NCBI GenBank assembly: GCA_018646565.1
Contig: JABGUO010000144.1
Location: 1 to 7,669 of the forward strand
Origin: Opitutia bacterium
GTDB lineage: Bacteria > Verrucomicrobiota > Verrucomicrobiia > Opitutales > Seribacteraceae
Direction: 5' to 3'
Length of the DNA: 7,669 nt
Under the pieces are notes generated by a model. That model was not told where the DNA came from and did not search any database. It saw only the letters and a program-made list of their open reading frames with translations. How positions within the stretch are numbered: position 1 is the first letter of the stretch; each line of letters begins with the position of its first letter. Positions 1 through 7,669 of this stretch are shown piece after piece. A program made the translations under genes and the position numbers.

Positions 1-990
1 ACTCCCGAGGGTTACAACAGACCGTTGCCTGGAAAACCAGACCAATGGAGTCCCTATGATCGGAAATTCGGTGGTTTTTGGAAGGATGGAAAACACTGGA
101 GTGAAATCGTGGCGGATGATGCAATTGACTACTTGTCAGAGGCTAAAAAGCATGCAAATAAAAATCCTTTCTTTGCCTATATTGCCTTTAACGCTCCCCA
201 TGACCCGCGACAGGCCCCCAAAGAATTCATTGATAAATATCCACTAACCCGAATCAAGGTTCCCTCCAATTTTCTCCCCATGTATCCCTATAAAGATAAA
301 ATCGGGTGCCCTCATGGACTACGGGATGAAAAGCTCGCTCCCATGCCTAGAACCAAACATGCCATTCAAGTAAATCGTCAGGAATATTACGCAATCATTA
401 CCCACATGGATCTTCAAATTGGACGAATCCTTGATTCATTAGAAAAATCTGGTATGGCAGACAACACCTATATCTTTTACTCCGCAGATCATGGATTAGG
501 AGTTGGGCATCACGGATTGCTGGGGAAACAAAATCTTTATGAGCACAGCACTCGTGTCCCTTTTATTATCCAAGGACCTGCGATTCCAAAAGGAAAGCGA
601 ATTGAATCCCCGATATATTTACAAGATGTAATGGCAACCAGCTTGGCCCTAGCAGGAATTGAAAAGCCCAAACATGTGGAATTCAATGACATCTTACCCC
701 TTGCTCTGGGAAAGACTAAGAAGTCTCCCTACAAAGAAATTTACGGTGCCTATTTGAATGTTCAACGCTCCATTACTAAAAATAACATCAAACTACTCGC
801 TTATCCCAACGTACCCTTGCTCCGAGTTTATGATATTACCAAAGACCCTGAGGAAAAGAAAGACCTTGCACCCACTCAAAAAGGAAAGGCACTAATCAAA
901 AAACTTTTTCCACAATTAGTGAAATTACAAAAGAAAATGGGGGATTCCCTTGATCTGCCTAAGTCATTTCCACTTATCGCATCCCAATAA
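1..990 (+). CDS. Sulfatase, alkaline-phosphatase superfamily (5'-truncated by window edge)
   Basis: C-terminal 329 residues of a type I sulfatase, an enzyme that hydrolyses sulfate esters; in this kind of bacterium the usual substrates are sulfated polysaccharides or small sulfate esters. The frame is open to base 1, so the TTG at 25 is not a real start. Family signatures visible: an APHDPR motif (about 193-210), the NRQEYYAIITHMD segment before an LEKSG helix, SADHG with the metal-binding Asp and His at 487-492, and GLLGKQNLYEH, whose Lys at 526-528 corresponds to a sulfate-contacting lysine. The C-terminal subdomain ends with the usual 'YDITKDPEEKKDLA' pattern, typical of S1 sulfatases from Planctomycetota, Verrucomicrobiota and Lentisphaerota. 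The nucleophile motif (Cys/Ser-x-Pro-x-Arg) and any signal peptide lie upstream, so formylglycine type, export and substrate cannot be judged. Family assignment is firm; substrate is unknown. Confidence 0.93.
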   Translation, partial: TPEGYNRPLPGKPDQWSPYDRKFGGFWKDGKHWSEIVADDAIDYLSEAKKHANKNPFFAYIAFNAPHDPRQAPKEFIDKYPLTRIKVPSNFLPMYPYKDKIGCPHGLRDEKLAPMPRTKHAIQVNRQEYYAIITHMDLQIGRILDSLEKSGMADNTYIFYSADHGLGVGHHGLLGKQNLYEHSTRVPFIIQGPAIPKGKRIESPIYLQDVMATSLALAGIEKPKHVEFNDILPLALGKTKKSPYKEIYGAYLNVQRSITKNNIKLLAYPNVPLLRVYDITKDPEEKKDLAPTQKGKALIKKLFPQLVKLQKKMGDSLDLPKSFPLIASQ

Positions 991-1106
991 GAGTTCGTTT
1001 TTGATAGAACTAATAATACAGCAACTTTTCACAATTTATAGATAGGTCGGTTAGTTACCAGCGCTGGCGATTTTTTCTGCTTTTAAGTAAATTTTTTAAA
1101 GAATAA
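991..1106. other. Convergent intergenic region
   Basis: This 116-base AT-rich gap separates the 3' ends of the sulfatase (+) and the PQQ propeller (-). I see no open reading frame or RNA gene in it. It contains a GC palindrome followed by a T-run (listed separately) and several A/T runs that could end transcription from either side. Confidence 0.6.
1058..1076 (+). terminator. Weak candidate intrinsic terminator after the sulfatase
   Basis: A perfect 10-base palindrome, CCAGCGCTGG (1058-1067), is followed three bases later by six T's (1071-1076), about 70 bases after the sulfatase stop. The stem can be only about 3-4 pairs once a loop is allowed, which is short for an intrinsic terminator. 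It is still the only GC-rich hairpin plus T-run in the gap. On the minus strand there is no comparable T-run directly after the palindrome. Confidence 0.3.
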
Positions 1107-2357
1107 TTAATCAGTTTTATTTAACTGTAGGCAAATAAGCCGCCTTTTATCACGGGCAAAAAGGAAACCATCAGCGAAAGAAAAATGTGCTCTGGACTCA
1201 GAACCCAGAATTTGTTGACGAAATAAAATATCACAACTTTTTGATGATGCTTTTAAAATTACTAATTCACCGCTTTCCAATAAGACTACTATTTTATCGC
1301 GGACTCGGATCAAGTTACCTGCACCTATTGAAGGTGCTTGCCACATAATTGCGCCGTCCTCCAATCGAATGCATCTGATCACCGGACTTCTTTCCTGCCT
1401 CCCATGGAATCCATAAATATATTCTCCTAACGCCACCGGGGTAGAATAGTGACAATCCAATATTCCTTTTTTATGCCATAACTTTTTGAATTGCGGATTT
1501 TCAGTTTTAATTTCTTCCTGATATTGCCAAAGCCCTGCACCCAAATCGTAACAGGATGAAAGAAACACCCGATTCCCAATAATTAAGGGCGATGTTGCAT
1601 TTACTGAGGCATTTATTGGGGAACGAAATGGAGTAAAAAATTCCTCGCTACCAGCATAAATATCCATCGCAAGGAAGCCTTTTCTCATAAAAGAAAGAGA
1701 AAATGATTTCCCGTTTGCAAAGAAAGGGAGAGAGGAGGAATAATCATTTCCGTATGGTTTACTGGACCATAATGTTTTCCCACTCGTTAAAGAAAAAGCA
1801 ACGATTCCAACTGTATTTCCACCAACATCAAATATGACTCGATCCCCTACAATCAAAGGCGATGAGCATCTCCCAAAGAAACCCTTTGGTGATTGAAAGT
1901 CCTTCTTCAGATCGCGCACCCAAATTGGTTTCCCCGTTGTAATATCTATCCCATAAATGATTCCCTGAGCACCATGCGTTGCAATCAAGCCTCTACTTAT
2001 CGATGGTGTTGAACGTGGTCCATTCCCCATCCCAAAACTATCTTGGTAGCCAGAAAAATAACTGTGCTGCCAAATTTCGGCTCCGCTATCAATATTCAAA
2101 CGATGTACGATTTCATTCTCCCCAACTTGGTCATGAAAGTAAACAGATCTCTCATGTATTATTGGAGCCGACCATCCTGAACCAACTGCAATTTTCCATT
2201 TTATACCAAACTCTTTTCCTTCAGGAGGTAAAGAAATGGTATTGTTTTCGGATGAACCGTTATAGTTTGCACCAAGCCAATTACTCCAATTCTCTGCCAT
2301 TAATTGGGGAATTGAAACCAATAAAAATGAGCCCATCAATACAAAGATAAAAAACAT
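1107..2357 (-). CDS. Exported PQQ-type beta-propeller repeat protein
   Basis: A 416-residue PQQ-like (BamB/quinoprotein-type) beta-propeller. Residues 1-21 form a signal peptide: a hydrophobic run followed by LMA/EN as a probable cleavage site. The mature protein opens with WSNWLGANYNG, matching the 'W-x-x-W-R-G-P-x-x-x-G' opening common in these proteins from Planctomycetota and Verrucomicrobiota. Blade-type repeats ending in 'G-x-x-x-W' recur, for example DSGAEIWQ (90-97), TTGKPIWV (140-147), TSGKTLWS (191-198) and EDGAIMWQ near the C-terminus, each preceded by an 'SxPxI..G..V' strand pair. Such propellers are usually periplasmic scaffolds or binding proteins; enzymatic PQQ use is not implied and no dehydrogenase domain is present. 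The ATG is chosen because an in-frame stop lies nine codons upstream with no ATG, GTG or TTG between. Its n-region lacks a positive charge and no Shine-Dalgarno motif is visible. It starts 32 bases after the stop of the DUF362-like gene, so the two are probably co-transcribed. Confidence 0.85.
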   Translation of the reverse strand: MFFIFVLMGSFLLVSIPQLMAENWSNWLGANYNGSSENNTISLPPEGKEFGIKWKIAVGSGWSAPIIHERSVYFHDQVGENEIVHRLNIDSGAEIWQHSYFSGYQDSFGMGNGPRSTPSISRGLIATHGAQGIIYGIDITTGKPIWVRDLKKDFQSPKGFFGRCSSPLIVGDRVIFDVGGNTVGIVAFSLTSGKTLWSSKPYGNDYSSSLPFFANGKSFSLSFMRKGFLAMDIYAGSEEFFTPFRSPINASVNATSPLIIGNRVFLSSCYDLGAGLWQYQEEIKTENPQFKKLWHKKGILDCHYSTPVALGEYIYGFHGRQERSPVIRCIRLEDGAIMWQAPSIGAGNLIRVRDKIVVLLESGELVILKASSKSCDILFRQQILGSESRAHFSFADGFLFARDKRRLICLQLNKTD

Positions 2358-2389
2358 AATAAGTGCAACCGATCTGCTACGTTAATACT

Positions 2390-3451
2390 TTATTGAACAT
2401 CATAAATTTCAGCTTTCTGGGCATCACCTAATCCAAGTTCTTTTGCGTATTGAAAAAGTAACAGCTTTTTTGCTTTTCTTTCAATAAATCCAAGCTCTTT
2501 CCTTTGCGTATTTAAAACGCTTAACGCTGCCCGATCGACAGAAAGAGGATTTTCACTCAGTAAAAGAGTTGATTCCCTACCTAAAAACTCTGCGTCAAAT
2601 TGGCCGGCATTTGCAAATTGATAGTGACTGAGGTCCATTATCGAATAAAGCCGGTTTTCCCAAAGTTCAGGAATCGCTAAAATTTCAGCGACAGTTGCTG
2701 GTGCTAAAGTTGGTTTATTTAAGAACCTTTGGTAATTTGAAATTGCACCCGTGGTCATGTTTGCTGATGCACCCTCGATCCCTAGGCTCAAATGATCCAT
2801 TGCAACCGATAAATTAATCCAAAATACATCGTTTAGAAAAAGGATACTGGGAAGATAGCTTTTCCTTTCTTCCGCGATACGCATTAATCTGTCTTGAGGA
2901 TATTGAAGAAAAAATCTCGCCCGGTCATGAATTGTGGGTGGCATAGGGCTATCATGTAGCCAAATCGAGTTGAAGTAATTTTGATTACGCGAAGATACCA
3001 CTTGGTACCCGTTATAAAGATTATCTATCTTGCGAGATGAACTAAATCCCGCTCTTGCAAGAGATAATTCATCACGATCCACAATAAATATCTGATCTTT
3101 TTGATACCCCCGTGTAGATAAAATATTCAATAATGCATCAACCAACAAAGAAGAAACTTGTAATCCAGGGGCATGCTTCGTTTTAATTTTGATTGCAATA
3201 TTGGAAAACGTATCAGGTCTTAAACGGGGACCACCGCGACTCTCTGCTGCTAAAATTAGTTTTCGTAATGAACTTAAATACTTTCCCTTCATGCTTTGTG
3301 CTCGAAAAATATCCATGGATCTAGTATCAAGAGGGTCTACTTTAATACTATTAAGTGGAGGTGCAGGGAATTTCACCTCGCCCCCCACAACTACTCGTAG
3401 GCAGACGAAGCTAATTAAAAAAAAATAGACGCTTGCTTGACGTTTCACCAT
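2390..3451 (-). CDS. Exported DUF362-like protein of unknown function
   Basis: I read this as a 353-residue exported protein. From the ATG at 3451 it begins MVKRQ followed by a hydrophobic core (about residues 7-22), a typical Sec signal peptide. The frame extends upstream to 3559, with another ATG at 3472, but that region overlaps the divergent TPR gene, so the shorter form is preferred. AAAGG directly abuts this ATG, too close for a normal ribosome site. Two segments resemble DUF362: IAIKIKTKHAPG followed by a helix and a strand ending IFIVDRD (about residues 85-126), and LNDVFWINLSVAMDH followed by GIEGASANMTTG (about 206-236). These correspond to the family's 'vaIKvN' and 'D.iInlpv.k.H...g.tgalkN' regions. 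The mature part has no cysteine, so it cannot carry the Fe-S cluster of some DUF362 proteins. Function is unknown. It probably heads a two-gene transcript with the downstream PQQ propeller. The existence of the gene is well supported; the family call is by eye. Confidence 0.72.
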   Translation of the reverse strand: MVKRQASVYFFLISFVCLRVVVGGEVKFPAPPLNSIKVDPLDTRSMDIFRAQSMKGKYLSSLRKLILAAESRGGPRLRPDTFSNIAIKIKTKHAPGLQVSSLLVDALLNILSTRGYQKDQIFIVDRDELSLARAGFSSSRKIDNLYNGYQVVSSRNQNYFNSIWLHDSPMPPTIHDRARFFLQYPQDRLMRIAEERKSYLPSILFLNDVFWINLSVAMDHLSLGIEGASANMTTGAISNYQRFLNKPTLAPATVAEILAIPELWENRLYSIMDLSHYQFANAGQFDAEFLGRESTLLLSENPLSVDRAALSVLNTQRKELGFIERKAKKLLLFQYAKELGLGDAQKAEIYDVQ

Positions 3452-3473
3452 CCTTTGAAAAAAATAATTCATG
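3437..3473 (+). promoter_or_regulatory. Divergent start region with weak promoter-like elements
   Basis: The plus-strand ATG (3471) and an alternative minus-strand ATG (3472) share the palindrome CATG at 3470-3473; the preferred minus start is at 3451. That leaves almost no space for promoters, so each must sit in or next to the other's coding sequence. On the plus strand TTGACG (3437-3442) resembles a -35 box and AATAAT (3463-3468) a -10 box, but the spacer is 20 bases. Initiation from this pair would fall after 3471 and would favour the in-frame ATGs at 3495 or 3498. On the minus strand TTGACC (3516-3511) is a possible -35 with only a poor -10 (AAGCAT, 17-base spacer). These are suggestions only. 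Confidence 0.25.
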
Positions 3474-4967
3474 CACTTTATTAAAACATGCTTAATGATG
3501 GTTGCCTCAGGGTCAATCTCACTGATCATATTTAGTTGTACTGAAGAACCACAATCCAACGAACCTGAAATCCAAGCAGTAACTCTCCCAGTAAAGCCAG
3601 ACTTATCGGATGCGATTCAGAAAAGAGTAGAAAAAAAACCAGAAGAAGCGGTCCTGCTACTGAGAAAACACAATAAAAACTTTCCCGACTCGCCCGCGAT
3701 TCTAATCCAACTCAGCCGAGCACTTGCAGATAGTGGCCAATACCCATTAGCAGCATTTCGAATCGAACAAGCCATCTCTGCAGGTGCAGATAAAAATTTA
3801 TTACTCGAATGTGCGGAAATTTATCAACTTGCCGGTGATTTAGATTCTTCACACGAACGCTTTAAGCAATACTTATCTGCGTTCCCTGAAGATTTAAAAG
3901 CCTGGCAGAAGTATGCCCAGACATTAATTACAAACGGAAACGAAACAAATGCATTAAACGCATTCGAAAAAGCAAGTTCAATAGCCTCTCCAGCCGACTG
4001 CTTACTAGTTGCCAAACTTTATACCAAGAAAAAAATCTATGTAAAAGCAGAGCATTGGTTTCGTGAATCTATTCAAAGAGAAACTAAACCAAGTGTACTC
4101 CCTCTACTAGGATTACTTCGAATAAAATTTCTAACTGGGGATGAAAGTGCAGCGGAAGCGCTCATATTCGCAATTGAAAAATCTTATCCTGGTGAATTGA
4201 ATAACGATGATCTAAGTAAAGCCTACAGTTCATTAATCATTAGAAGAAGGCTCGCTGAATTTGGCAAAAGAGAGGTCGTTGTTCAGAACTTGTCGATTAG
4301 CGAACTAGCCCAAGAACTTTTGAGTGAACCTAAAAAAGTAATACCCGCGGTCATTTCATCTGGGCCGAAGCTATCCCCTCCCCTTTCTGATTCATCGTAT
4401 GTCGAAGAAAAAAATAGTGAAGTGGAAAAAATTAATGATGAAAACATTGGACCACAAACCACTTTAGCTGAAGCTTTTTCAATAGATAGCACACAGCTTA
4501 TAAAACCCAGTCCGCTTGAATTGGGTTGGAGTTCTTTTCTCTCCGGAAATTACTCTGAGGCGTTAATTCATGCGAGAGATTCAATAAAATTAAACAGTAA
4601 GGACTCAGAGGCATGGCGGTTAACCTCACAAGCACATTTTCAACTGGGAGAAATTCGCGAGGCAGAAATGACAATTCTTGAAGCAATTCGCCATAATCCA
4701 AATGATTTAAAAACTCGTATGGATTACCTTAATATTGCTAGAGAAACTCTCTCCTCGAACCGGTACCTTGTAGAGTTGGAAAAAACTCATGAACGATTTC
4801 CGGCTTCCGGTGAAATTCTGTGGCAATTAGCAAGGCGTTACCATATAGTAAATCGTATGCCTGTTACCGCGGGAATATTATACAGAAAATTACTCACTAT
4901 TGTCCCAAAAGGAAGCCCATTATATTATCAATCTGAAATGGAATTAATCAAAATACAAAATCTGTAA
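3471..4967 (+). CDS. TPR-repeat lipoprotein
   Basis: A 498-residue tetratricopeptide-repeat protein, probably lipid-anchored. Residues 1-22 form a signal peptide (Lys at 5, hydrophobic core 8-21) ending in I-F-S-Cys23, a near-lipobox with an unusual Phe at -2; the next residues (TEEPQSNEPE) are a polar tether. TPR-type helix pairs fill about residues 45-245 (for example 'SRALADSGQYPLAAFRIEQA' and 'YAQTLITNGNETNALNAFEKA') and again about 350-480 ('GNYSEALIHARDSIKLN', 'LGEIREAEMTILEAIRHNP'). Between them lies a low-complexity Ser/Pro/Glu-rich linker, about 280-345. TPRs bind proteins, so an assembly or scaffold role at the membrane is likely; the partner is unknown. An in-frame TAA at 3465-3467 limits the start to 3471, 3495 or 3498. 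The first is chosen because only it gives a positively charged n-region. No Shine-Dalgarno motif is seen. The stop is 16 bases before the dnaG ATG, so co-transcription with dnaG-rpoD is likely. Confidence 0.85.
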   Translation: MHFIKTCLMMVASGSISLIIFSCTEEPQSNEPEIQAVTLPVKPDLSDAIQKRVEKKPEEAVLLLRKHNKNFPDSPAILIQLSRALADSGQYPLAAFRIEQAISAGADKNLLLECAEIYQLAGDLDSSHERFKQYLSAFPEDLKAWQKYAQTLITNGNETNALNAFEKASSIASPADCLLVAKLYTKKKIYVKAEHWFRESIQRETKPSVLPLLGLLRIKFLTGDESAAEALIFAIEKSYPGELNNDDLSKAYSSLIIRRRLAEFGKREVVVQNLSISELAQELLSEPKKVIPAVISSGPKLSPPLSDSSYVEEKNSEVEKINDENIGPQTTLAEAFSIDSTQLIKPSPLELGWSSFLSGNYSEALIHARDSIKLNSKDSEAWRLTSQAHFQLGEIREAEMTILEAIRHNPNDLKTRMDYLNIARETLSSNRYLVELEKTHERFPASGEILWQLARRYHIVNRMPVTAGILYRKLLTIVPKGSPLYYQSEMELIKIQNL

Positions 4968-4983
4968 TAGAATTTATTTGATT

Positions 4984-6864
4984 ATGCCCATGTATGCAGA
5001 AAATTTTGTAGAAGAACTCAAAGATCGCGTAGATTTGTATGATTTGATCAGTCCCTATGTTCAGTTAAAAAAAAGCGGGGCAAAATGGGTTGGATTAAGC
5101 CCATTCAACCAAGAAAAAACTCCTTCTTTTTATGTTGATTCTATCAAAGGCTTCTTTCATTGCTTTAGCTCGGGGGAAAAAGGAGATGCACTCTCCTTTG
5201 TTCAGAAAGTGGAAAACCTAACTTTTCCTGAGGCCATTGAATTTCTGGCCAACCGGTTTAGCATTCCTATTCGATATGCAGATAATGCAACGGGGAAATC
5301 AAACTCTTATCGAAAGTCAATTAAATCAGATCTCTATGAAGTGCAGGAACTTGCAATGACATGGTTTGCTGAACAATTTCATCTCAAAAATGATGAAAGT
5401 AAGGTTGCACTTGACTACTGGATTACCCAGCGAAAATTTTCCCTCGAAGATGCGAGTCAATTTGGAATTGGATACGCTCCAGTGGACCGATTTGCACTTA
5501 GCCGATACTTAGAAAAAAAAGGGATTAACGACACCATATTGAGTAAATCTGGATTATTTAATGAGAAAAAACAATCCGGACAATTTGCCTCACGGTTTTG
5601 TGGACGGTTAATGATTCCAATTCGGGAAAAGATTGGTCGCGTTTGCGGATTTACTGCAAGACTGCTATCCGTTACACCGGTTTGGGGAGACCGAAAATCC
5701 CCTAAGTATGTAAATTCCCCAGAAACTCCCATATTCCTGAAGGGCGATTTACTCTTCAACCTTCATCTTGCCAACAAAGAAATTGATGAGAACAAGGAGT
5801 TCATACTGGTGGAAGGACAACTTGATGCAATTCGATGTTGGCTCGAAGGGTTTAAAACAGTGGTGGCACCGCAAGGCACTGCGTTTAAAGATTCGCAAGC
5901 CATGCTTATGCGTAAATCTAGTCCTAAGGGCGTAGTTTGTCTTCTTGATGGGGATGAAGCAGGACAAAAAGCGGCATTTTCCTATATTCCCACGTTCTTG
6001 CGGGTTGGACTTGATGCCCGTTTTACCTCACTACCGGAAGGAAAAGATCCAGATCAAATTCTCCTTGAGCAAGGTACGGAAGGCTTAACCAAGATTTTGG
6101 AACAAGGAGTATCTTCAATCGAGTATGCAGTTCGTTACAAACTTAAGGGAAAAAATAACCCACAAGCTTCTGAAATTAGAGCGATCAGTGAGTTAGTGTT
6201 TTCCTCTATATCAGAAGTGGATTCTTTGATCATGCGAGATAGTTACCTGAAGGAACTTAGTCGACATTTAAAGGTCTCCTTTCAGACAATGACTGAAGAA
6301 TTTATTCAATTTAATCGCTCTAAGAGACCTAAATACAAAGGGAATAGTACTAAATCCACGACAATATCCACAAAAAAATCCTCTCCACGTTTGACAACAG
6401 CCGAAGATGATTTATTATTTTGTCTTTTGCATGATGATAGAGTTGCAAGCCCGCTTGCCCAAATTTTTGATCCAACTTGGCTTAACCTCGAAATTCCAGC
6501 GGGGAGGATTTTGGCTAAAATCATGGCAGAAACAAAAGCAGATGGTCCCATTGAAGCCAATCGAATGGAAGAATTCCTTGAAGATGATTCTGAAAGAAAT
6601 GTCTTTCAACAGAACTACTTTCAAGAAGTCTCTTCTTTTGATGAAAATTCCTTTCTTCAACACGCGAACGAATGTCTACTTGCACTTTTCATCCGATCAA
6701 TTAAACAGAAAGAAAAGAAAATACTCCACGACCTCGATAAACCAGCAGATGGAGTTGATACATTAAACACACTTCGTCACGAACTACTCGAACTCCGAAA
6801 AAACCGAAAACATCCGCCCAAACTAATTTTCTCTGACAAGCCCACCCGATACTCACATGCCTAG
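4984..6864 (+). CDS. dnaG: DNA primase DnaG with altered zinc-ribbon ligands
   Basis: A 626-residue bacterial primase, which makes RNA primers at the replication fork with the replicative helicase. Residues 1-100 are the CHC2-type N-terminal domain (LKKSGAKWVGLSPFNQEKTPSF ... FFHCFSSG.KGDA), where three zinc ligands are replaced: Ser39, Asn42, Cys60, Ser63. The RNA-polymerase core follows, with conserved 'GRLMIPI', 'GFTARLL' and 'PKYVNSPETPIF'. The TOPRIM catalytic centre is intact: Glu277 (EGQLDA), Asp322 and Asp324 (DGDEAG), Asp355 and Asp357 (DPD). A basic Ser/Thr-rich linker (about 445-470) leads to the C-terminal helicase-binding region. Length is normal for the family. The ATG at 4984 is preferred to the upstream TTG at 4978; the ATG at 4990 (MYAENF) is equally plausible. 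No Shine-Dalgarno motif is visible. The gene follows the TPR lipoprotein by 16 bases, and its last 8 bases overlap rpoD. Confidence 0.97.
   Translation: MPMYAENFVEELKDRVDLYDLISPYVQLKKSGAKWVGLSPFNQEKTPSFYVDSIKGFFHCFSSGEKGDALSFVQKVENLTFPEAIEFLANRFSIPIRYADNATGKSNSYRKSIKSDLYEVQELAMTWFAEQFHLKNDESKVALDYWITQRKFSLEDASQFGIGYAPVDRFALSRYLEKKGINDTILSKSGLFNEKKQSGQFASRFCGRLMIPIREKIGRVCGFTARLLSVTPVWGDRKSPKYVNSPETPIFLKGDLLFNLHLANKEIDENKEFILVEGQLDAIRCWLEGFKTVVAPQGTAFKDSQAMLMRKSSPKGVVCLLDGDEAGQKAAFSYIPTFLRVGLDARFTSLPEGKDPDQILLEQGTEGLTKILEQGVSSIEYAVRYKLKGKNNPQASEIRAISELVFSSISEVDSLIMRDSYLKELSRHLKVSFQTMTEEFIQFNRSKRPKYKGNSTKSTTISTKKSSPRLTTAEDDLLFCLLHDDRVASPLAQIFDPTWLNLEIPAGRILAKIMAETKADGPIEANRMEEFLEDDSERNVFQQNYFQEVSSFDENSFLQHANECLLALFIRSIKQKEKKILHDLDKPADGVDTLNTLRHELLELRKNRKHPPKLIFSDKPTRYSHA
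6391..6418 (+). promoter_or_regulatory. Candidate sigma70-type promoter inside dnaG, driving rpoD
   Basis: A perfect -35 hexamer TTGACA (6391-6396) is followed after 16 bases by TATTAT (6413-6418), five of six matches to the -10 consensus. Both lie within the dnaG linker/C-terminal coding region, about 440 bases upstream of the rpoD start. In Escherichia coli, rpoD is also transcribed from promoters located inside dnaG, so the position is biologically sensible. A chance match in AT-rich coding sequence remains possible. Confidence 0.4.
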
Positions 6865-7669
6865 AACAAAAAGTACCAAATCCACTACCAAACCTGCTGT
6901 TAAGAAAGCAGCGACAAAAAAAGTTACAGCAAAAAAGACGCCTGTAAAGAAATCTCCTGTGGAGAAGGAGAAGATATCTTCAGTTCGAAAAGTAGAAAAG
7001 GTAAAGACAACAAAGACAGCTTCCACAGAGGCAAAGAAAAAGAAGTCATCAAGTTCAAAACTAACTGTCTCGGCTAAAGAAATTGCAAAAACATTGGATA
7101 AAAACATGGAGCCTCATGCTTTGAATGATGATGTTACTGAGAAAGTTAGAGAACTTATTCACCTTTCGAGAGAGCAAGGATATCTTACTTACAAGAACAT
7201 TGACCAATCTTTGCCCGAAATTGCGAATCAACCTGAAGAGCTTCAAAATGTTATTTCTATTTTTAATAACCTTGAAATTAAGCTTCTCGATTCCAATGAA
7301 GTAGATAAATTCAAAAAGAAAAAAGAAGAAAGCGAAGAGGAAAGTGCCCGGTCTAACCAAAGCGATATGCTGGACGATCCTGTCCGAATGTACCTTAAGC
7401 AAATGGGACAAGTACCTCTTCTTTCCAGAGAGGAAGAAGTTGATATTTCCAAAAGAATCGAAACCGCAGAAAGCTCGGCCCTCAAAATTATTTATTCGGT
7501 CAGTTTAACTGCAAACTTTCAATTAAACATTTGTAAAAAGTTAATTGCCCGCGAAGAAAGATTTGACCGGGTGGTACTCGATAAGAAAATTGACAGTAGA
7601 GAATCGTATTTTAAAAACTTAGCAAAACAGGTAATCGCTCTTGAGGATGCCATTCGAAAAATAAATAAT
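6857..7669 (+). CDS. rpoD: Primary RNA polymerase sigma factor RpoD (3'-truncated by window edge)
   Basis: N-terminal 271 residues of the housekeeping sigma factor, which directs RNA polymerase to most promoters; the frame is open to the last base. Residues 1 to about 70 are an unusual lysine-rich tail (22 Lys in the first 68). Next comes a sigma70 region 1.1-like segment (about 75-150: SAKEIAKTLDKN ... VRELIHLSREQGYLTYKNID), an acidic/basic linker (KFKKKKEESEEES), then region 1.2 (about 173-205: DDPVRMYLKQMGQVPLLSREEEV, a hallmark of primary sigma factors). The rest (VSLTANFQ to the end) looks like the variable spacer before region 2.1; regions 2-4 are outside the window. The ATG lies within the end of dnaG (ATGCCTAG, 8-base overlap), which implies translational coupling; no Shine-Dalgarno motif is visible. 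The downstream ATGs are too late to keep region 1.1. Identification rests on region 1.2 and the dnaG neighbour. Confidence 0.95.
   Translation, partial: MPRTKSTKSTTKPAVKKAATKKVTAKKTPVKKSPVEKEKISSVRKVEKVKTTKTASTEAKKKKSSSSKLTVSAKEIAKTLDKNMEPHALNDDVTEKVRELIHLSREQGYLTYKNIDQSLPEIANQPEELQNVISIFNNLEIKLLDSNEVDKFKKKKEESEEESARSNQSDMLDDPVRMYLKQMGQVPLLSREEEVDISKRIETAESSALKIIYSVSLTANFQLNICKKLIAREERFDRVVLDKKIDSRESYFKNLAKQVIALEDAIRKINN
6893..6967 (+). repeat. Degenerate 15-base coding repeat: lysine pentads in the RpoD tail
   Basis: RpoD residues 13-37 divide into five consecutive pentapeptides, PAVKK, AATKK, VTAKK, TPVKK and SPVEK, four of which end in Lys-Lys. The pattern resembles the C-terminal tails of histone H1 and bacterial H1-like proteins. 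At DNA level the units are diverged, so this is selection for composition or old duplication, not a recent tandem expansion. Confidence 0.65.

Follow-up and report, generated by a model that had tools for sequence, protein, structure and literature searches.

The window, the whole stretch of 7,669 nucleotides analysed here (contig JABGUO010000144.1 of assembly GCA_018646565.1, Opitutia bacterium, order Opitutales), carries the dnaG gene of the chromosomal DNA primase, which initiates new DNA strands. The CHC2 motif Cys-x2-His-x17-Cys-x2-Cys, with its four zinc ligands, was not found in the N-terminal ribbon of this DnaG. The ribbon reads Ser39-x2-Asn42-x17-Cys60-x2-Ser63 at the canonical spacing x2-x17-x2. 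An earlier note on this DNA had described the same motif and its exact spacing, and the coordinates and codons read here agree with it (Table 1). The second zinc knuckle changed from C-F-G-C to C-F-S-S, in which Gly62, a neighbour that is not a ligand, is Ser too. His59 and Cys60 are the only Cys or His residues of the window ribbon. The domain was still detected by PF01807 with 102 bits (Pfam cut-off 24.9).

Table 1. Positions in the window of dnaG, its domains and key residues, and the adjoining rpoD
Feature	Position	Strand	Basis or remark
dnaG, chromosomal DNA primase, 626 aa	4984..6864	+	Open reading frame (ORF); Pfam Zn_ribbon_DnaG, DNAG_N, Toprim
N-terminal ribbon domain PF01807, without zinc site	4984..5280	+	PF01807 match 4999-5280
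Ser39 (AGC), position of zinc ligand Cys 1	5098..5100	+	
Asn42 (AAC), position of zinc ligand His	5107..5109	+	
Tyr50, aromatic accompanying ligand loss in cellular primases	5131..5133	+	
Cys60 (TGC), sole ligand retained	5161..5163	+	
Ser62 replacing zinc-knuckle glycine	5167..5169	+	
Ser63 (TCG), position of zinc ligand Cys 4	5170..5172	+	
DNAG_N, first part of catalytic core	5380..5772	+	Pfam
TOPRIM catalytic domain, acidic residues intact	5803..6063	+	Pfam; invariant columns
C-terminal helical domain, probable helicase-binding domain	6400..6807	+	Helices of model; placement inferred
rpoD start, sigma-70 regions 1.1 and 1.2	6857..7669	+	Cut by window end; overlaps dnaG end

The window protein has the DNAG_N and TOPRIM core of a bacterial DnaG together with its acidic residues. 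E277, D281, D322, D324, D355 and D357 were invariant in 59/59 aligned sequences including the window, as expected from the earlier note. The C-terminal domain had no Pfam match, and Foldseek aligned it weakly with the DnaG C-terminal domains 4IM9 and 6CBR (TMt 0.65-0.70, E 0.12-0.2). No fused SF4 helicase domain of the Twinkle type was matched by Pfam in the window protein, and its C-terminus is helical in the model. The ATG start at 4984 aligns with the starts in relatives, and an in-frame TTG upstream at 4978 is also possible.

The dnaG gene adjoins rpoD, an arrangement also found in other bacteria. The source genome of the contig comprises 2.48 Mb over 522 contigs and is 78 % complete. At this completeness it gave a single PF01807 match and a single DNAG_N match, and the profile search for a second canonical dnaG, a check proposed in the earlier note, found none. 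Positions 1-4967 of the window encode a sulfatase, a PQQ/BamB-like beta-propeller protein, an ORF without Pfam match and a TPR protein, none of them plainly linked to replication.

Authenticity, selection and predicted fold of the ribbon

Sequencing error or chimerism in the window was rejected. Near-identical DnaG proteins occur in other Opitutales metagenome assemblies (L062 with 98 % and L063 with 97 % protein identity; here and below, f denotes a family, G a genome, L a locus and P a homologous protein). The same kind of motif was present in 119 of the 120 homologues listed, out of 1055 found. The homologue P0117, which combines S and N with C-F-G-C, was considered as a half-way form and rejected as a metagenomic chimera; it stands outside every ribbon count. 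On its 2.5 kb contig, the protein is Opitutales-like from the N-terminus up to EKTPSF, and the remainder is presumably gammaproteobacterial.

Comparison of the window ribbon with that of L063 revealed 0 amino-acid and 21 silent changes. The ribbon evolves more slowly than the catalytic core, and Ser39-Pro40-Phe41, Glu44, Pro47-Ser48-Phe49 and Gly67 were invariant in 59/59 aligned sequences. The AlphaFold model of the ribbon had a pLDDT of 93 and lay 1.2 Å over 92 columns from the zinc-bound Geobacillus ribbon 1D0Q. The PF01807 match and this model indicate that the ribbon fold is probably kept. The earlier note had judged error unlikely and the domain folded and selected, and the results support it on these points.

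Spread and residue signature of the metal-free ribbon

The ligand columns were read in 99/177 genomes of the order, a choice that spanned its families and represented each of the 28 family codes, and in a further 79 genomes from elsewhere. The pattern S-x2-(polar)-x17-(C or D)-x2-(S/T) was carried by 27/28 Opitutales families. Only f3, which we take to be Opitutaceae, keeps C-H-C-C, and no family of the order was mixed for ligand state. The last cysteine has given way to Asp in f6 and in some of f85, leaving zero ligands. Beyond the order, three more families of its class (f12, f16 and f22) are ligand-less, and all other families of the class and phylum that were read keep their ligands. Family f12 is Methylacidiphilaceae: G042 and Candidatus Methylacidiphilum fumarolicum share 100 % identity in the ribbon region, and the same ligand-less form is seen in Methylacidimicrobium proteins. 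Thirty extra genomes picked for a low PF01807 score gave 29 C-H-C-C ribbons and 1 of f12. The earlier note could not tell whether the change was specific to one genome; aligned across the phylum, the ligand columns show that it belongs to a clade.

DNAG_N had no match in 12/177 genomes of the order and more than one match in 8/165 genomes with a match. The one extra PF01807 protein that was read (L489, G496:C106:9900-10700, f5, an open frame of 985 aa) was ligand-less with S-T-C-S. Two genomes stood out by their counts. G441 (f8, one 2.3 Mb contig, 95 % complete) gave neither PF01807 nor DNAG_N and zero candidates, which a masked stretch, another genetic code or true absence might explain, and G433 (f7) gave eight PF01807 and five DNAG_N matches, perhaps from mobile elements, as far as counts tell. 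The 143-row alignment omits 11 loci: the own or near copies L001, L062 and L063, the side hits L094 and L096, and the short or cut frames L019, L065, L089, L092, L093 and L120. No DnaG frame was present at L067, L068, L095, L097 and L098, and 4/350 sources were without a ribbon (L095, L097, L098, L395).

A total of 346 ribbons were read, 186 cellular ones from the family search and 160 viral ones (181 and 137 distinct). In the distinct cellular metal-free ribbons, position 1 was Ser in 94/94, position 2 was variable (T, N, S, K, Q, A or R), position 3 was C in 87/94 and D in 7/94, and position 4 was S in 58/94 and T in 36/94. Residue 62 was Ser in 92/94 of them, against Gly in 83/87 and Ala in 4/87 zinc-type cellular ribbons. 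Residue 50 was aromatic in 82/94 distinct metal-free ribbons and in 4/87 zinc-type ones. The codon count parsed 135/154 rows. The Ser codon at position 1 was AGY in 88/91 rows, with TCN the commoner Ser codon in the same genes (ten families counted); position 4 had 33 AGY, 25 TCN and 33 Thr codons. The AGY bias at position 1 can be read as left by a single-step replacement of Cys TGY, with hardly any drift since.

Two sets of viral primases were collected from IMG/VR. The first consisted of 79 loci retrieved with a Ser-requiring pattern (LSPF..E[KR]TP); all 79 were metal-free, most with S62. The second used mixed patterns able to admit half-way forms; its best 80 of 576 comprised 69 zinc-type and 11 metal-free loci, and eight contigs were common to both sets. 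The commonest form in the first set was S-K-D-S (19/79), and 38/72 distinct viral metal-free ribbons had zero former ligands. Many short phage primases with S-x2-K-x17-D-x2-S and no zinc ligand were seen among L275-L310. Asp at position 3 was found in 23/30 viral rows with Lys at position 2 and in 21/61 others, in rows not thinned or corrected for kinship. This pairing in the sequences suggests that a salt bridge substitutes for the metal in phage ribbons. The ribbon of the Caulobacter phage Sansa primase reads S-T-C-S, and no such motif was found in the Bacillus phage Goe12 primase.

Ribbons with two or three ligands were found neither among the 186 cellular nor among the 160 viral ribbons. 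That no intermediates were seen suggests that the ribbon has two separate solutions, each of them stable. Judged from these sequences, the metal-free ribbon is a definite alternative state and not decay.

Origins and zinc sites in other proteins

Trees of DnaG without the ribbon (26 rows, simpler model) rejected a single clade of all ligand-less rows (p-AU 2.6e-5) and a clade of Opitutales with f12 and f16 (p-AU 1.3e-32). A single ligand-less Opitutales clade was compatible with the trees (p-AU 0.58 for DnaG and 0.44 for RpoB, the RpoB locus having been obtained from 27/30 genomes). Families f12 and f16 were sisters in the RpoB tree (100/99), and f22 clustered with zinc-type f20 in the DnaG trees (98*, 96*). 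Since one shared origin is rejected by the trees, the ligand loss arose at least two times, with three times the most likely number. The first DnaG tree had pointed to zinc ligands being regained in f3; this step was not needed once a single ligand-less Opitutales clade proved compatible with the RpoB tree, as corrected, and with a smaller tree of DnaG.

From this genome set, up to 30 members were also read for other structural zinc sites, those of ClpX, LigA, DnaX and RecR. The four LigA cysteines were kept in 20/26 and lost in 6/26 (4/30 unread). All four were lost at L427-L431 and L433 (G128, G304, G149, G134, G363, G001), in f2, f4 twice, f5, f6 and f9. The own genome gave no LigA locus, and its genus mates G387 and G416 keep the LigA cysteines. 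DnaX of the clamp loader (L436-L457) was without its zinc module in 19/22 read, including two f3 genomes where DnaG keeps zinc. The module survives only in f13 and in two genomes of f95; no full match was obtained from G000 or G387. The RecR proteins of G128 (f6, L483) and G363 (f9, L488) have two of the four cysteines left, as C-x2-T...C-x2-Y. ClpX and 19 LigA loci were compatible with a zinc loss specific to DnaG, a reading rejected on the LigA loci without zinc-domain match.

For ribosomal proteins, the 2009 table of PMC3087516 lists Verrucomicrobiae as C-minus (zinc-free) for all eight proteins scored, the sole such group in that table. Taken with the losses of zinc cysteines in DnaX, LigA and RecR, the simplest joint reading is a lineage-wide, protein-by-protein loss of structural zinc, repeated in information-processing proteins with the fold kept. 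The earlier note is supported in describing a folded and selected ribbon. Its view of DnaG was too narrow, since DnaX, LigA and RecR also lost zinc cysteines.

Explanations of the metal-free ribbon and comparison with known systems

We consider it probable that the window ribbon is functional and metal-free. By prediction the ribbon folds, and it would probably keep its hold on the template even with no metal bound, with Ser39, Asn42, Cys60 and Ser63 at the positions of the zinc ligands. Stabilisation without metal, which the earlier note had offered as one possibility, is judged the best reading of sequence and model. Ser39, polar residue 42, Ser62 and Ser or Thr63, with aromatic residue 50 in cellular primases, may form a side-chain network that does the structural work of zinc. 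Side chains at the old ligand positions and at residue 62 would close the knuckles, and a salt bridge between Lys at position 2 and Asp at position 3 might serve there in many viral primases. The ribbon would keep presenting the template to the catalytic core in its normal template-recognition role. The change may have been one step as the whole lineage shed structural zinc from proteins of replication and translation, with the primase itself retained. Zinc scarcity as the cause is a guess.

The ribbon might still bind metal through other ligands, for example Cys60 together with residues elsewhere in the protein or on another chain. Cys60 is retained in 87/94 distinct cellular metal-free ribbons though the rest of the site is gone, and some Opitutales rows have His at residue 52 (34/83) or Cys at residue 8 (21/83). 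However, the window ribbon offers just His59 and Cys60, and no new Cys or His column is common to all ligand-less rows. The same signature also occurs with no former ligand in six f6/f85 dnaG ribbons, in the secondary ORF L096 and in 38 of the 72 distinct viral ribbons, and we regard other ligands as improbable. We give even less weight to a relic ribbon with priming independent of it, as in animal Twinkle. The invariant TOPRIM residues (59/59), the finding of only one dnaG, beside rpoD, a ribbon slower-changing than the catalytic core and the residues invariant from Ser39 to Gly67 all disfavour a relic.

Selection for altered priming-site choice, an idea that goes back to the earlier note, and not for zinc saving, would suit a switch that is discrete and repeated. 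Sequence recognition is ascribed to the ribbon (PMC6163395). Against this, DnaX, LigA and RecR lost zinc cysteines in overlapping genomes. These three proteins choose no priming sites, and selection on priming-site choice appears unlikely, if worth keeping in mind. The chromosome might also have acquired the metal-free ribbon through recombination with a phage primase, given this form, mostly with the same S62, in 79/79 loci of the Ser-requiring pattern and 11/80 of the mixed patterns. Kinship was compared as ribbon identity outside the six switch columns, not by a tree. The f95 ribbon was best at 0.64 to other Opitutales and 0.61 to f3, against 0.50 to viral ribbons; the f12 ribbon reached 0.62 to f16 and 0.61 to zinc-type ribbons against 0.51; and the f22 ribbon reached 0.64 to zinc-type ribbons against 0.52. 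Acquisition from phage is hardly credible on these values.

Several observations weigh against a functional metal-free ribbon arising in a lineage-wide loss of zinc. ClpX kept C-x2-C...C-x2-C in 27/27 read (3/30 without match; the weak match of G005 below the family cut-off may be another protein), and RecR kept its zinc cysteines in 21/23 (no match in G000). The retention in ClpX and RecR speaks against a zinc-saving demand everywhere. The single alphaproteobacterial DnaG read keeps CHCC, though ribosomal proteins there are also zinc-poor (PMC3087516). More than one PF01807 match was found in 19/165 genomes of the order with a match, and a zinc-type second copy is possible in some of them. 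Aromatic residue 50 was not associated with ligand loss in viral ribbons (16/72 against 12/65). The sign test for correlated residues had three usable pairs with a median p of 0.5, about three switches being too few for significance. The best DnaG trees put zinc-type f3 beside f95, nested in the ligand-less Opitutales, and the f3 ribbon was closest to f95 in 12/12. With this placement, there may have been several losses within Opitutales or a re-gain of ligands in f3. AlphaFold may also reproduce a fold learned from the family even where the protein itself would not be stable.

We tentatively propose a wider scenario, which we hold with less than even confidence, in which Verrucomicrobiia have been dismantling the zinc of the replisome while keeping the folds. 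After an already zinc-free ribosome, DnaX would have lost zinc, followed by DnaG on about three occasions and later by LigA and RecR; this order is taken from the breadth of spread, not from a dated tree. DnaG would have gone through a two-state switch in which a Ser/polar/Ser-Ser lock, or Lys-Asp in many phages, replaced the metal and no half-way form survived. Independently of this scenario, a metal-free DnaG ribbon extends what is seen in zinc-free translation machinery to replication in one bacterial lineage, and the zinc finger label of PF01807 would be wrong for a large group. Natural variants that separate fold, metal and template recognition are at hand in Methylacidiphilum fumarolicum, in the closely placed families f3 and f95, which differ in their ligands, and in the ligand-less phage primases.

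Zinc loss is described for treble-clef fingers (PMC4999995). For the loss of DnaG zinc ligands in bacteria, no report was found in the titles and abstract openings of the open-licence literature, of which not all matches were opened. The window protein shares the ribbon fold (by the 1D0Q match) and the DNAG_N and TOPRIM core with canonical CHC2 DnaG proteins (Geobacillus 1D0Q, Aquifex 2AU3), and differs from them by the replacement of 3/4 zinc ligands and of the knuckle Gly by Ser. Phage DnaG-like primases (S-x2-K-x17-D-x2-S; S-x2-T-x17-C-x2-S) are changed at the same positions and mostly have the same F-S-S end. Unlike the window, they often have all four ligands gone, and an aromatic residue 50 is not typical of them.

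In metazoan Twinkle, the N-terminal domain is without 3/4 ribbon cysteines and primase activity was lost (PMC7231222). Twinkle resembles the window DnaG in these three losses and in the kept TOPRIM motifs. It differs in its helicase fusion and lost activity, whereas the window protein, its catalytic residues intact, is the sole DnaG detected in its genome. The intact TOPRIM, the single copy and the strong selection argue against a Twinkle-like fate here. The C-minus ribosomal proteins (PMC3087516) are likewise core proteins of the same lineage whose Cys ribbon became zinc-free clade-wide. In contrast, the window protein is a replication enzyme with no zinc-type paralogue found in its own genome, where the one PF01807 and one DNAG_N match make no C-plus/C-minus pair. 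DnaG apparently changed in place, whereas gene transfer was proposed for ribosomal protein S4 in the same source. The putative zinc-binding domain of GluRS is zinc-free in many bacteria, and the zinc-free version was functional in a chimera (PMC4381286). GluRS is a translation enzyme whose function was proven by experiment, whereas that of the metal-free DnaG ribbon is a prediction. Both have a zinc-free version of a zinc domain, and the functional GluRS domain is a precedent that such a domain can work without zinc.
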